A stretch of DNA of 33,475 nucleotides, taken from NCBI RefSeq assembly GCF_003024925.1, contig NZ_PUED01000009.1:1-33475 (forward strand), given 5' to 3'. This document shows positions 12,553-16,877 of this stretch, piece after piece; the first letter of the stretch is position 1, and every line of letters begins with the position of its first letter. Position numbers and translations under genes: made by a program. Under the pieces are notes generated by a model that was not told the origin of the DNA, searched no databases, and saw only the letters and a list, made by a program, of their open reading frames with translations. This DNA is from Paramuribaculum intestinale. Its GTDB lineage: Bacteria > Bacteroidota > Bacteroidia > Bacteroidales > Muribaculaceae.

Positions 12553-12663
12553 GCGATAATGTCGGAGACGGCCATCATAGGCGTGTGTTAAGCTCGTATA
12601 AAAATGCTTATCAGCAGGTGTGCGGGGCGATAAACGCGCGCAGCGATGCGGTGGGTCGGGTGG

Positions 12664-12671
12664 TAATTTTG
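12664..12671 (+). promoter_or_regulatory. Possible -7 box before the 747-aa gene
   Basis: TAATTTTG at 12664-12671 matches TAnnTTTG and lies 31 bases before the ATG at 12703. No TTTG is seen at -33. It would drive the 747-aa gene and the terminase as one transcript. Confidence 0.4.
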
Positions 12672-12702: not shown

Positions 12703-14946
12703 ATGAGCACAAAGAGATTGCAGAGGGTGAAGGTATCGGCTACCGGAGTGGAGCGTGGAGGCGGCAGAGTGAAGCAGTGCGTGAATCTGGTGAGGCTCCG
12801 CGGCGCATTGACGCCAATGACGCCGATACCATCGGCCGACGATGACAGCAACGGCGGCAAGCCGTCGGGCGGAAGTGAGACATACGAGCGCCGCACGGCG
12901 GTGTATGCTCCGGTGAGGCTGGTGGCCAGGGTGGCGGGACGGATGCAGCGTCAGACCTCGGCTTTCACTCCCTCGGAGGGGGATCCGGGGAGGCGTCAGG
13001 GTATGGGCGACAAGGATGTGGCGTCGCTGTCGGATATGCTTGGCACGGCCTATTGCGGTCTGGTGGCGGAGGCTGCCGAGAACGGCATGATGCTCCAGCC
13101 GGTGGCTTGCGGCTACAGGCTTATCGGTGCTGACGGGTCGGTGCTGTATGAATCGGGCGTAGGATTTGTGGGTGCGAGGGAGGGCGCGCAGCTGTGCGGC
13201 GTTTTTTGTCCGGGGCTGACGCGTCGCAGCCCGACGGATTTCACGATCGCTGATTTCGCGATGGAGGCTGAGGCGTATGCTCTGGAGGCGGAGATACCGG
13301 CTTACGGCGCTGACAGCGGAGTGGCCGAGGTGGAGATATACGTGGGCGAACAGCTTCATCCGGTGGATCCCGACGGCCTCTCCGAGGTGAGGATAGATGG
13401 CGCGGAGGGGAACAATCCCACGGTGAGGCTCGCTCTTCCGGGAGCTACAACCGCGCTGACCCCTAACCTGCGGAGTCTGACGTCAAAGGCCATGATGCTG
13501 TCGGGTTGCGGCATGGGGTGGATGCGTGTGGCGGCACGGATCAAGGCCGGTGAGGCGAGGGTGGTGAGAGTGGGCGATGCGGCCCGCGGCGATGTGGCCG
13601 TCAGCCGTAGGCTTAGCGACAGAGTGGCAGTGCAGGCCGAAGAGGCGGCAAAGCATACGCTGACAGCTGAGGAGCGGCTTCTGTCGGCGGTCGGCACTCC
13701 ATGCGGTTTCAGGGCTGAACGGTGTGTGAGGTCGGGTGATACGGCAGTGATGAGCGGCATCACGACCGTGCGATTCGAGGGAGTTTCGCCGCTTGAGATG
13801 GTGGTGGCCGGCGAGGGTGACGATCTGATAGAGCTGCGTGCGAGGGTGACGGGGCGCGATGGCGCGGAGGTGGTGCGCGAGGCTGTGATGAGGGGTGACT
13901 TCAGTACGATAGCGCGCAGTGTGGTGGTGGGGTATCCGTCGGGCGATATGTCGGAACTGCATATAGAGGCAGTGTGCGGGGGTGTGAGCAAGCATTTTGA
14001 TGCTATGCTTGTGCCGTCGGCCGATATGAGCCGGTCGCTGCATGTCACCGCAGGGCTTGCCGCCGCAGCCCCGGAGAGGATAGAGGAGGTGAGAGGAGAG
14101 GGAGAGAGAGGAGAGGATGGGAGAGAACATGAGGAGAAAGAACATATGGATGACAGCGAGGAGAGAGGCAGCGGGGCGGCGCGAGGGAGGGAGCGGCGTG
14201 TCGGCAATGCTCTCGTGGCGGTGGCGGGCGACAGGATCGCGGCGTGTCTGTTAGGCGCAGGTGTGGAAGTGGCCGACATGGCGCTCGCCGACAGAAGCCG
14301 CACTACGTGGGACTCGTCGAGATGTCACCTGTATGCGACGGCTTCTGACGGCATCTACGGTGTGAGCGTGGATATGGCTTCGGAGCGCATCGCGGCCACA
14401 AGTCTGTCGGGAGTGCGGGTGACGGGGTCGCTGATCCCGGCCCGTGAAGGGTATTATGCCGCTACCGGGAGCGGAGTGGTGGCGATAGCGGGCGGATGTG
14501 TGAAGGCGATCGGTGGCGGCCGATGGATGTCGGCCCGGATAGACCCGTCAAGCGGATTGCCGCTGATGACCGACGTGTCGGGACGCAGCTTCCTTGTCGA
14601 TGACGACGGCACGGAGTATATGGCCGACCCGGCGCGACAGGGCGAGGCTGAATGGCGGGCCGGAGTGGAGCTCGAAGAGGGGGAGCGGGTGTGTGGAGCG
14701 GAATTGCGGCTGAGAGCCTCGTCGTTTGACGGCGTGGTGGAGATCGCTGCCGGAGGTCGCCGCCGGATGCAGACGGTCAGCCGGTGGAGGATACGCGGGC
14801 CGATCCGCGGTGTGTTGAGGCTGAAGGGTGTGGTGTGTCCGTCGCGGCCATACGTAGAGCTGAGGCTGAAAGGGCGCGTGTCGGCCGACATGAGGCTTCG
14901 TTCGGCGACAGTGGATGTAGTTGCGGGTGGAGGGAAATGTGTGTAA
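12703..14946 (+). CDS. 747-aa protein of unknown function encoded with a large terminase
   Basis: I do not recognise a family with certainty. There is no signal peptide. The N-terminus (RLQRVKVSATGVERGGGRVKQCVNLVRLRGALTPM) has a pattern reminiscent of the openings of some phage neck or DNA-stabilisation proteins; this is only an impression. Residues ~115-450 are rich in short beta-like segments (GYRLIGADGSVLYESGVGFV, IADFAMEAEAYALEAEIPAY). Residues ~463-500 form a very charged linker (many E, R, G) encoded by a purine-rich tract. Residues ~505-630 have repeated blade-like stretches (LYATASDGIYGVSV, YYAATGSGVVAIAGG, SARIDPSSGLPLMTDV) that suggest a beta-propeller. The C-terminus (GVLRLKGVVCPSRPYVELRLKGRVSADMRLRSATVDVV) looks like a beta-sandwich. 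It ends 14 bases before the terminase start, so both are likely one operon. A virion or tail-neck role is a hypothesis only. Confidence 0.6.
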   Translation: MSTKRLQRVKVSATGVERGGGRVKQCVNLVRLRGALTPMTPIPSADDDSNGGKPSGGSETYERRTAVYAPVRLVARVAGRMQRQTSAFTPSEGDPGRRQGMGDKDVASLSDMLGTAYCGLVAEAAENGMMLQPVACGYRLIGADGSVLYESGVGFVGAREGAQLCGVFCPGLTRRSPTDFTIADFAMEAEAYALEAEIPAYGADSGVAEVEIYVGEQLHPVDPDGLSEVRIDGAEGNNPTVRLALPGATTALTPNLRSLTSKAMMLSGCGMGWMRVAARIKAGEARVVRVGDAARGDVAVSRRLSDRVAVQAEEAAKHTLTAEERLLSAVGTPCGFRAERCVRSGDTAVMSGITTVRFEGVSPLEMVVAGEGDDLIELRARVTGRDGAEVVREAVMRGDFSTIARSVVVGYPSGDMSELHIEAVCGGVSKHFDAMLVPSADMSRSLHVTAGLAAAAPERIEEVRGEGERGEDGREHEEKEHMDDSEERGSGAARGRERRVGNALVAVAGDRIAACLLGAGVEVADMALADRSRTTWDSSRCHLYATASDGIYGVSVDMASERIAATSLSGVRVTGSLIPAREGYYAATGSGVVAIAGGCVKAIGGGRWMSARIDPSSGLPLMTDVSGRSFLVDDDGTEYMADPARQGEAEWRAGVELEEGERVCGAELRLRASSFDGVVEIAAGGRRRMQTVSRWRIRGPIRGVLRLKGVVCPSRPYVELRLKGRVSADMRLRSATVDVVAGGGKCV

Positions 14947-14960
14947 AGCGATTGTAAGGC

Positions 14961-16877
14961 ATGATTACAGACGAAGAAAAGGATACGATATTCTCAGATC
15001 CGGTGGCTTTGGTGGCCGAAAACGAGCGCCGCAAGGCCGCCTGCAGCGGAGCGTATGATCCGGAGAGCGGCGAAGGCTGCTGCGGCGAGAGGGTGGAGCT
15101 GAAACGCTGTTTCAGACGGTGGCTGGTGCCGGTGGAGATGATGTCTGATCCACGGATCAAATCGTGTCGCCGTGTGGTCGAGATCGAGAGGCTGCGGGCT
15201 GAGTATGATTTCGAGTTCTGGGCGTGGCGGTGTGTGGAGATCTCCGACAAGCAGACCGGCCGGATGATGCGGATGAAGCTCAACCGCCCGCAACGCAAAC
15301 TGCTCGGTGTGATGGAGGGACAGCGGCGTGGCGGAATGCCTGTGAGAGTGATACTGCTTAAGTCGCGCCAATGGGGCGGAAGCACCCTGACGCAGATCTA
15401 CTACGCATGGCTTCAGACGGTAGTGGCCGAGGGGCTGAATTCGCTGATATGCGCCCAGGTGCTGAACACGTCGGGGACAATACGGAGGATGTATGACCGG
15501 CTGCTGCGCAATTATCCCCGTGAACTGTGTGATGACGAAGAGCAGTGGCGCAGGCTGAAAAAGGGTCTTGTGCCGAGCGGCGACGGCAGCAGCAGCCGGA
15601 TCGTGAGCGGGCGCAGGGCTACGGTGACCGTAGGCTCGTCGTTCGGCCAGGACGCGGTGAGGGGTCTTGACATAAGGCTCGCTCATCTGAGCGAGGTGGC
15701 TTTCTGGCGTGACACCGATCTTATGAAGCCGGCCGATTTCGTGAGAGCCATCTGTTCGGGCATAGCCCTGCAGCCGCTTACGGCGGTGGTGATCGAAAGC
15801 ACTGCCAACGGCGTGGGCAATTACTTCCACAAGGAGTGGCTTCGTGCGAAGGATGGGAGCAGCGACAAGGCGGCCGTGTTTGTAGGCTGGCATGAGATCG
15901 AGGAGAATGTGGCTGATGCGGGCGACGTGGGTCAGATCGTCAGTCAGATGGATGAATATGAGCGCAATCTGTGGCGGCGCGGTCTGACTCTCGAACAGAT
16001 CAGATGGTATCAGCTCAAGCGGCGTGAAGCTCCTGATCATTCGAAAGTGATGGCGGAGTATCCGACCGACGACACCGAAGCGTTTATCAACAGCGGTTTC
16101 GGAGTGTTTGCTCCCGATCTGGTGGAGCGTATGCGCTCGACGTGTCATGATCCGGTGGCTGTGGGCGAGGTCGGCGGCATGGCTCTGACAGGACCGGACG
16201 CCCTCCGCGGGGTGAAGTTCGCGGCCGACGCCAAAGGGTGCCTGAAGGTGTGGGAGTGGCCTGCGCGCGAGCGACATAACAGCGACCGTTATGTGGTGAC
16301 GGTGGACATAGGCGGTCGCAGTGCCGGTGCGGACTGGTCGGTGATAGCGGTGATGGACCGCGGCGAGGCCGACGGAAGCGGACCGATGCGGATAGCCGCC
16401 CAGTGGCGCGGCCATATCGACCACGATCTTCTCGGGTGGAAGGCTGCCGCGATAGCCGCCTATTACAACGAGGCTCTGCTGGTGGTGGAGAGCAACACTC
16501 TCGAGACAGAGCGTGCCGGATCGTCGACCTACATTCTCGAGCAGCTCAGCGAATGTTACGGCCATCTGTATGCCCGCACTCTGCGCGACACCTTCAATCC
16601 TCAGCGGGAGCGGCGACTGGGATTCCATACCAACCGTCAGACCAAAGGACTGGTGGTGGAGAGTCTGATAAGAGCTGTCAGGGAGCATGAGTATCTTGAG
16701 CGCGACAATATGGCCTGCGACGAGATGATGACCTACACGCAGCTTCCGGGCGGCGGGTATGCCGCGCGCGACGGCTGTCACGACGACGTGGTGATGACCC
16801 GCGGCATGGCAGTGTATGTGGCCTCGACGGTGAGACGCAGTCCGGAGGCGAGCTGCAGCTACTTCCGGGGGCGGTGA
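14961..16877 (+). CDS. Phage-type terminase large subunit
   Basis: A 638-residue protein with both terminase domains. The ATPase part has the deviant Walker A KSRQWGGST (residues 134-142), with the lysine at the front of the loop as in lambda-type terminases, and a Walker B HLSEVAFW with Glu245. A TAVVIESTANG segment follows (coupling motif). The nuclease part has the RNase H-like acidic triad: VTVDIGG (Asp449), LLVVESNTLE (Glu510) and GCHDDVVMTRGMA (Asp608/609). In phages this motor packages DNA into capsids and cuts concatemers. All key residues are present, so it appears functional. Oddities: no small terminase, portal, capsid or tail gene is recognisable nearby, and its GC-rich codon use matches the chromosome. 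The only likely partner is the 747-aa gene 14 bases upstream. The next gene, a sugar acetyltransferase, has its own promoter. Confidence 0.88.
   Translation: MITDEEKDTIFSDPVALVAENERRKAACSGAYDPESGEGCCGERVELKRCFRRWLVPVEMMSDPRIKSCRRVVEIERLRAEYDFEFWAWRCVEISDKQTGRMMRMKLNRPQRKLLGVMEGQRRGGMPVRVILLKSRQWGGSTLTQIYYAWLQTVVAEGLNSLICAQVLNTSGTIRRMYDRLLRNYPRELCDDEEQWRRLKKGLVPSGDGSSSRIVSGRRATVTVGSSFGQDAVRGLDIRLAHLSEVAFWRDTDLMKPADFVRAICSGIALQPLTAVVIESTANGVGNYFHKEWLRAKDGSSDKAAVFVGWHEIEENVADAGDVGQIVSQMDEYERNLWRRGLTLEQIRWYQLKRREAPDHSKVMAEYPTDDTEAFINSGFGVFAPDLVERMRSTCHDPVAVGEVGGMALTGPDALRGVKFAADAKGCLKVWEWPARERHNSDRYVVTVDIGGRSAGADWSVIAVMDRGEADGSGPMRIAAQWRGHIDHDLLGWKAAAIAAYYNEALLVVESNTLETERAGSSTYILEQLSECYGHLYARTLRDTFNPQRERRLGFHTNRQTKGLVVESLIRAVREHEYLERDNMACDEMMTYTQLPGGGYAARDGCHDDVVMTRGMAVYVASTVRRSPEASCSYFRGR

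Follow-up and report, generated by a model that had tools for sequence, protein, structure and literature searches.

The window analysed here, 33,475 nucleotides of Paramuribaculum intestinale DNA (family Muribaculaceae; assembly GCF_003024925.1, contig NZ_PUED01000009.1), contains a phage-type large terminase gene and a partner gene that ends 14 bases upstream of it. The two genes probably form one of the scattered loci of a podophage-like particle system that the host has domesticated. A gene transfer agent (GTA) is the likeliest identity of this system, whose range takes in Muribaculaceae and a few other Bacteroidales families. The two open reading frames (ORFs), of 747 and 638 aa, lie where an earlier note on this DNA had placed them:

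12703..14946, plus strand: 747-aa partner ('c3'), probable podophage-type tail nozzle or DNA-stabilising protein
14961..16877, plus strand: large terminase (TerL), 638 aa, ATPase-nuclease packaging motor, with a phrog_2 match and invariant catalytic residues

The 638-aa protein is identified as a phage large terminase by its resemblance to PHROG large terminases (phrog_2, E 5.5e-17). The Walker A motif, Walker B Glu245 and nuclease triad that had been read as intact are indeed invariant in an alignment of 21 TerL sequences (three of 24 rows, partial, split or oddly long, were omitted), in which K134, R136, Q137, W138, G139, S141, T142, E245, D449, E510, H607, D608 and D609 do not vary. Pfam and NCBIfam searches with TerL gave no match, the protein being too divergent for both, and a PDB search returned T4 gp17 only, weakly (E 0.005). 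For the 747-aa partner the best reading is a relative of a phage structural protein, the closest resemblance being to a podophage tail nozzle such as those of the P22 gp10, SU10 or T7 gp12 type. Its previously noticed propeller-like C-terminal segments were supported at moderate confidence; the VIA and Foldseek lists for the protein include propeller enzymes and carbohydrate-binding domains too, a family missing from them being no evidence against it, and its alignment is too divergent for a scan of viral contigs.

The surroundings are those of a host chromosome, as had been claimed: aroB lies upstream of the pair and sugar-nucleotide and polysaccharide genes lie downstream, no phage gene was recognised next to the pair among ten scanned window proteins, and the GC3 of the two genes (0.71 and 0.73) falls inside the range of their ten neighbours (0.61–0.75). 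Integrase, lysis and tail genes contiguous with TerL, which would mark a prophage, were not found; the scanned neighbours in the window, and those of the capsid locus L116 described below, are host genes. Whether the pair is conserved between aroB and sugar genes received a divided answer. The partner stands next to TerL in 17 of 20 longer loci, each from a different genome; among these 17 it is divergent in one and separated by one called ORF in another. G074 and G040 encode it at a different genomic site, and in G194 it is weakly matched. The other neighbours of the pair in 20 relatives are unlike each other and change from genus to genus, and a conserved linkage to aroB was accordingly rejected. 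A related lipoprotein-like gene (444–638 aa as called) lies 3' of TerL in four of the 20 loci (L040, L041, L043 and L055).

An unlinked capsid operon and its phage relatives

Portal and capsid genes, which the earlier note had suggested seeking elsewhere in the same genome, were found on another contig (G000:C357), one gene apart. The operon to which they belong is flanked by genes for ribonucleotide reductase, nitroreductase and peptidase U32 on one side and for biotin-ligase-type and SusC/SusD-type proteins on the other. No phage replication, integration or lysogeny gene was recognised next to the window pair or next to this capsid locus, the two loci to which the statement applies. The operon recurs, in full or in part, in 20 stretches from 18 genomes, with the genes c6, capsid, c4, portal, c5 and c8 (median lengths 126, 429, 187, 474, 146 and 147 aa), and a similar gene order is met in host surroundings across genera. 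In this order, the genes are predicted to encode a scaffold that is probably truncated, a major capsid protein of SU10 type, a protein resembling a connector, a P22-type portal of reduced length, a small-terminase candidate and one further protein.

Six of the eight parts (TerL, capsid, portal, c4, c5 and partner) match a single phage group at E 1e-5 or better; the best phage matches of c6 and c8 are weak (E 0.001 and 0.0025). The group consists of IMG/VR contigs and three temperate phages of Bacteroides, BKO1-TP3 (PQ571269), BS-TP4 (PQ571277) and BF1-TP2 (PQ571263), with whose TerL proteins the window TerL shares 38–39% identity. All three have homologous TerL, capsid, portal, connector and c5, and two have the nozzle, but they differ in their 64–68 kb records and very large virion proteins, with portals of ∼645–674 aa and a scaffold-position protein of ∼260–284 aa, whereas the host parts are scattered and mostly shorter. 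Median lengths in host and phage are 474 versus 669 aa for the portal, 126 versus ∼264 for the scaffold, 429 versus 484 for the capsid and 632 versus 704 for TerL; c5 is not shortened (146 versus 149). Longer forms occur in other families (a 252-aa scaffold in three genomes, a 709-aa portal in one), which fits the expectation of an earlier stage. The phage gene immediately 5' of the capsid gene probably encodes the scaffold, and c6 retains, by eye, the motif found at the C terminus of that protein. The phages encode c5 directly or one gene upstream of TerL, and this position makes c5 a candidate small terminase. A c5 relative gave a confident helical model (pLDDT 91.7) that matched no PDB fold, a known small-terminase fold included, and c5 therefore stays a candidate. 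In public records the TerL proteins of PQ571269, PQ571277 and PQ571263 are annotated 'tail spike protein'.

A GTA is expected to have phage-derived capsid, portal and terminase genes that reside in the host genome and are not packaged as a unit. The genes are resident, and they are dispersed: in 32 of 40 good genomes coordinates were available for both TerL and capsid, and the two lay on separate contigs in 23, shared a contig at a distance of 20 kb to 2.5 Mb in six, and were within 12 kb of each other in three. Different contigs of a draft genome are by themselves no proof of distance; long contigs are, and they give the separations in G087 (2.55 Mb), G194 and G040 (0.96 Mb). In G156 portal, capsid and TerL occupy three places, and separations in G156 and G194 are of at least 100 kb. 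G054 retains a linked set of partner, TerL, capsid, connector, portal, c5 and c8.

Two further loci deserve mention. L136 (IMGVR_UViG_3300035520_001476, 6.4 kb), catalogued as viral, is a GTA-type cluster with a partial TerL, c6, capsid, connector, portal, c5 and c8, and groups with Muribaculaceae G054 in three trees. At L123 and L044 (G074:C4), particle genes lie directly 3' of what by eye look like ftsZ and other division genes, and are followed by sugar genes.

Promoter elements shared by separate loci

The window pair and the unlinked capsid operon of the same genome are preceded by the same element:

12632..12671, plus strand: promoter element AAACGCGC-N24-TAATTTTG, upstream of the window pair
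L116, 10047-10086, minus strand: the same pattern, upstream of the capsid operon

TAATTTTG fits the Bacteroidetes −7 box, TAnnTTTG. The pattern matches once in the window and not at all in 100 shuffles. In G031 it likewise precedes the two operons, one of them with AAACACGC, and in G016 the partner gene. Matches came from six of 238 loci, which apart from the window amount to four distinct places, and each match lies 5' of one of these operons; the loci covered small parts of the P. intestinale, G031 and G016 genomes.

Other genomes carry other elements at equal spacing. In G010, 39 bases are identical, and in G040 one element precedes three unlinked loci, those of TerL, capsid and partner. 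When operon promoters of one genome were aligned at their −7 boxes, 12 of the 24 pairs scored at least 10, as compared with two of 190 other same-genome promoters (one reaching 38) and eight of 747 cross-genome pairs; without the box condition the excess was smaller (12 of 85 versus 18 of 869 at score 13). Since two of the 12 scoring pairs (G036 and G074) lie within ∼12 kb and some of the genomes are close kin, the twelve are not independent cases. A standard sigma-70 scan gave nothing useful, and a search for TTTG-N(16-22)-TAnnTTTG found 1/34 and 2/28 only. Separated operons have common promoter elements in about half of the testable genomes, and the separate loci may be switched on together. 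In L127 (G036) a common 31-bp stretch lies upstream of c3 and of c6, and its c3 copy contains a near-perfect inverted repeat (AAATCGGAC...GTCCGATTT) of operator-like form.

In G040 the particle element also stands before a lone small gene:

L265:16618-16866, plus strand: 82-aa holin-like protein, membrane-spanning by eye

When this protein was compared with phage records by tblastn, it matched 18 Porphyromonas phage records, two other phage records (E 3e-11 to 5e-6 among the matches listed for these) and, weakly, 46 Bacteroides phages (E 0.01–0.4 among the matches listed). In two of these records that were inspected, the relative lies directly before endolysin and spanin genes in one and one small gene before a spanin gene in the other; we read the protein as holin-like because its relatives occupy a holin's place. 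Nothing in PHROG matched it, no Pfam family reached the cut-off and the other loci compared lack a relative, so that the reading has its support in the tblastn matches. A co-regulated holin is a lead, suggested by one genome.

Distribution and descent

Within the genus, 31 of 34 genomes (14/14 of high quality) carry a TerL relative; within the family, counting relatives of any type, 226 of 247 do (160/170 of high quality; 29 of 30 genera), mostly as one copy per genome. Partner relatives were found in 218 of the 247, mostly single and some of them weak, and SU10-type capsid relatives in 219, again mostly single and 200 of them with E < 1e-130. Among 40 good genomes, 37 have a P22-type portal and 38 an SU10-type capsid, with scores above the curated cut-off in 36 and 37 of them, respectively, and the capsid match of G062 is no more than weak; the ordinary Phage_portal family was found in seven of the 40. 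At least nine family genomes have neither TerL nor capsid (chance 1e-4). Genus g30 has only weak capsid matches in 13 genomes and strong ones in seven, as patchy loss or another prophage family might leave.

Across the order, the capsid occurred in 11 of 119 genomes (110 genera) and TerL in 11, the identical 11 (chance 9e-16); P was 2e-11 when the genomes of Muribaculaceae and one prophage were left out. Three of the 11 are Muribaculaceae. In seven, from five other families, TerL and capsid lie on different contigs (six) or 46 kb apart (one). One of the seven, G359, has an additional linked phage-type copy, and G267 has a linked phage-type copy only. Among 296 genomes across the phylum, a strong match was obtained in P. 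intestinale alone and weak ones in two others. A plasmid origin was rejected: a search of 72,556 plasmid records with TerL gave only five matches, the best of them a Parabacteroides sequence at 33%.

The dN/dS comparison that the earlier note had proposed revealed purifying selection. Values for system genes against the two nearest relatives were 0.08–0.36 (TerL 0.076 and partner 0.22 against G016; TerL 0.11 (0.107), capsid 0.11, portal 0.16 and partner 0.32 against G031, with rpoB at 0.04). They were obtained by the simple Nei-Gojobori method; in four more distant pairs dS was at least 1.3 or saturated. These values, together with the finding that nearly all listed TerL matches lack an internal stop (the exceptions being G106, G015 and G016), rule out a decaying relic.

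In trees, GTA-type and phage-type TerLs are split with a support of 0.958. The corresponding split has a support of 0.995 for the capsid, with the linked copy G359p as an exception, and 0.311 for the portal. Quartet agreement with rpoB was 0.46–0.56 against a null mean of 0.33, with agreement as high as that observed reached in 0–5 of 300 permutations, and agreement between system genes was higher (TerL–capsid 0.55, TerL–portal 0.70, capsid–portal 0.76). Distances for TerL, partner and connector correlate clearly with those for rpoB. The genes have been maintained over the long term, mainly vertically and under purifying selection, and vertical descent with some exchange is a fair reading of their history.

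A probable domesticated particle system and its alternatives

The idea of a GTA-like packaging system split across the genome, put forward in the earlier note, has gained support from the unlinked capsid and portal genes, the near family-wide distribution, the purifying selection and the shared promoters. The alternative offered with it, a lone domesticated nuclease or other DNA-processing enzyme, is not needed and was dropped because unlinked capsid, portal and scaffold-like genes exist. We envisage that a common regulator would turn the separate operons on in some cells, where empty heads would assemble. TerL would then fill the heads with pieces of chromosomal DNA, being unable to favour its own scattered genes, and the nozzle would close a short tail. 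Lysis, perhaps by the co-regulated holin-like protein seen in one relative, would release particles that could deliver DNA to kin.

For a study that works from sequence, the evidence on packaging, head and coordination is strong. Several observations weigh on the other side. The particle, its packaging and any transfer are predictions from sequence, and the loci read showed no tail-fibre, receptor-binding or endolysin gene that could belong to the system. The family-wide counts take in any relative and not the domesticated type alone: of the 219 capsid matches, six (G009, G012, G145, G210, G214 and G241) have values such as phage-type or partial copies give, and a further 13, every one from genus g30, are weak, with E from 6e-19 to 3e-10. 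In G009 and G012, which belong to the same genus as the window, the sole portal and capsid matches resemble phage copies in both score and length; the domesticated set may have been lost there or may be unassembled. TerL is missing from 21 and the capsid from 28 of the 247 genomes, not always the identical ones, and three genomes that are 99% complete (G038, G083 and G132) have a capsid and no TerL match. The fit of the system to the species tree is loose; in Mantel tests against rpoB the capsid correlation was not significant (r 0.19, p 0.076) and that of the portal was marginal (p 0.05), and the weak capsid correlation makes some exchange likely. Half of the box-anchored operon pairs (12 of 24) lack a shared element.

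The G040 element, finally, is not exclusive to the particle system. A scan of ∼0.84 Mb at up to two mismatches also placed it before the methionine synthase gene metH (L240:13051) and cysE-cysK-type genes (L264:10384), and in two apparent dispersed intergenic repeats with no evident gene by eye (L239:749 and L267:252). After one of these repeats, again by eye, a 16S rRNA gene follows within a few hundred bases. A reversed-sequence control gave two sites with four or fewer mismatches, none with a −7 box. The sites before metH and the cysE-cysK-type genes hint that the system may be linked to the supply of sulfur-containing amino acids.

A different use for such particles would be killing, in the manner of PBSX, a contiguous defective prophage that kills: heads with host DNA would hit kin or rivals with no useful transfer, and selection would be for antagonism. 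The same genes would be conserved in that event, and the partner does evolve faster (dN/dS 0.22–0.32) than TerL and capsid, as an exposed part might; but neither of the two P. intestinale loci has a recognised tail, fibre or immunity module next to it, and the genes are scattered here, unlike those of PBSX. PBSX packages random 13-kb host pieces without transfer (PMC7667829). A killing particle seems to us unlikely in this case.

Capsid and packaging genes might instead be kept for interference with infecting phages, by satellite-like piracy or as a decoy, and would then form no particle themselves. Related phages do infect Bacteroidales, and most of the parts are shortened versions of those of the phage group. 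Against this stand the conservation of head and packaging genes, the catalytic sites of TerL being intact, and the presence of a TerL relative in nearly all high-quality family genomes, whereas defence genes are usually patchy; we hold interference to be very unlikely. Repeated independent decay of prophages that left the same genes, for which the linked phage-type copies in Bacteroidales (G267; G359, contig C32), the seeming restriction of G009 and G012 to phage-type copies and the loose tree fit could be cited, is largely refuted and highly improbable in view of the purifying selection, the separation of GTA-type from phage-type TerLs, the similar gene order in host surroundings across genera and the shared promoters.

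For the gene transfer agent that we favour, a fuller history can be sketched, which we would put at about even chances. It would be an ancient system, older than Muribaculaceae, whose genes became scattered as single operons under lineage-specific, co-evolving promoters, with a tie to a sulfur-amino-acid regulon in at least one lineage and a domesticated holin for release, and it would move DNA within a dominant family of the mammalian gut. If the GTA is real, an abundant gut family would possess a heritable DNA-exchange particle, a GTA would have arisen independently from a podophage, and the extreme dispersal of its genes would be a natural experiment on GTA survival without self-spread. Unlinked promoters that evolve together should make it possible to discover the regulator. 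The particles would also be a possible source of host DNA in mouse-gut virus-like particles. Muribaculaceae were the most abundant family in conventional mice in one study (PMC10892684). In a 2020 study of mouse-gut virus-like particles, 46 contigs had patterns that may reflect generalised transduction or a GTA, and Bacteroidetes accounted for 83 of the 186 contigs that showed mobilisation patterns; its text does not name Muribaculaceae (PMC7667829).

Among the matches listed by searches of the open full-text literature, there was no report of a GTA in Muribaculaceae or Bacteroidota (bioRxiv and most subscription journals lie outside that search). Known systems offer partial parallels. PBSX of Bacillus subtilis is a phage-like particle that packages random host DNA (PMC7667829), as we propose here; it differs in the contiguity of its genes. 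FpGTA of Faecalibacterium, likewise from a gut bacterium, has a short-tailed-phage-like head operon with TerS, TerL, portal, scaffold and capsid, and a second operon for tail and lysis; the same paper notes lateral transduction in Bacteroides, and Muribaculaceae do not occur in its main text (PMC12946183). FpGTA differs in belonging to Ruminococcaceae and in its contiguous 10.5-kb head operon, and its particles and packaged host DNA have been demonstrated.

RcGTA, BaGTA and CcGTA come from another phylum and another phage ancestor: the tail of RcGTA is siphophage-like, whereas here an SU10-type capsid and a P22-type portal are joined by a probable podophage nozzle. These alphaproteobacterial GTAs share with the present system domesticated phage head and packaging genes that are kept in host genomes, with parts at several loci (PMC12946183, PMC7947584). 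In the system described here dispersal goes further, in that even capsid, portal and TerL are each separable by at least 100 kb, as in G156 and G194.

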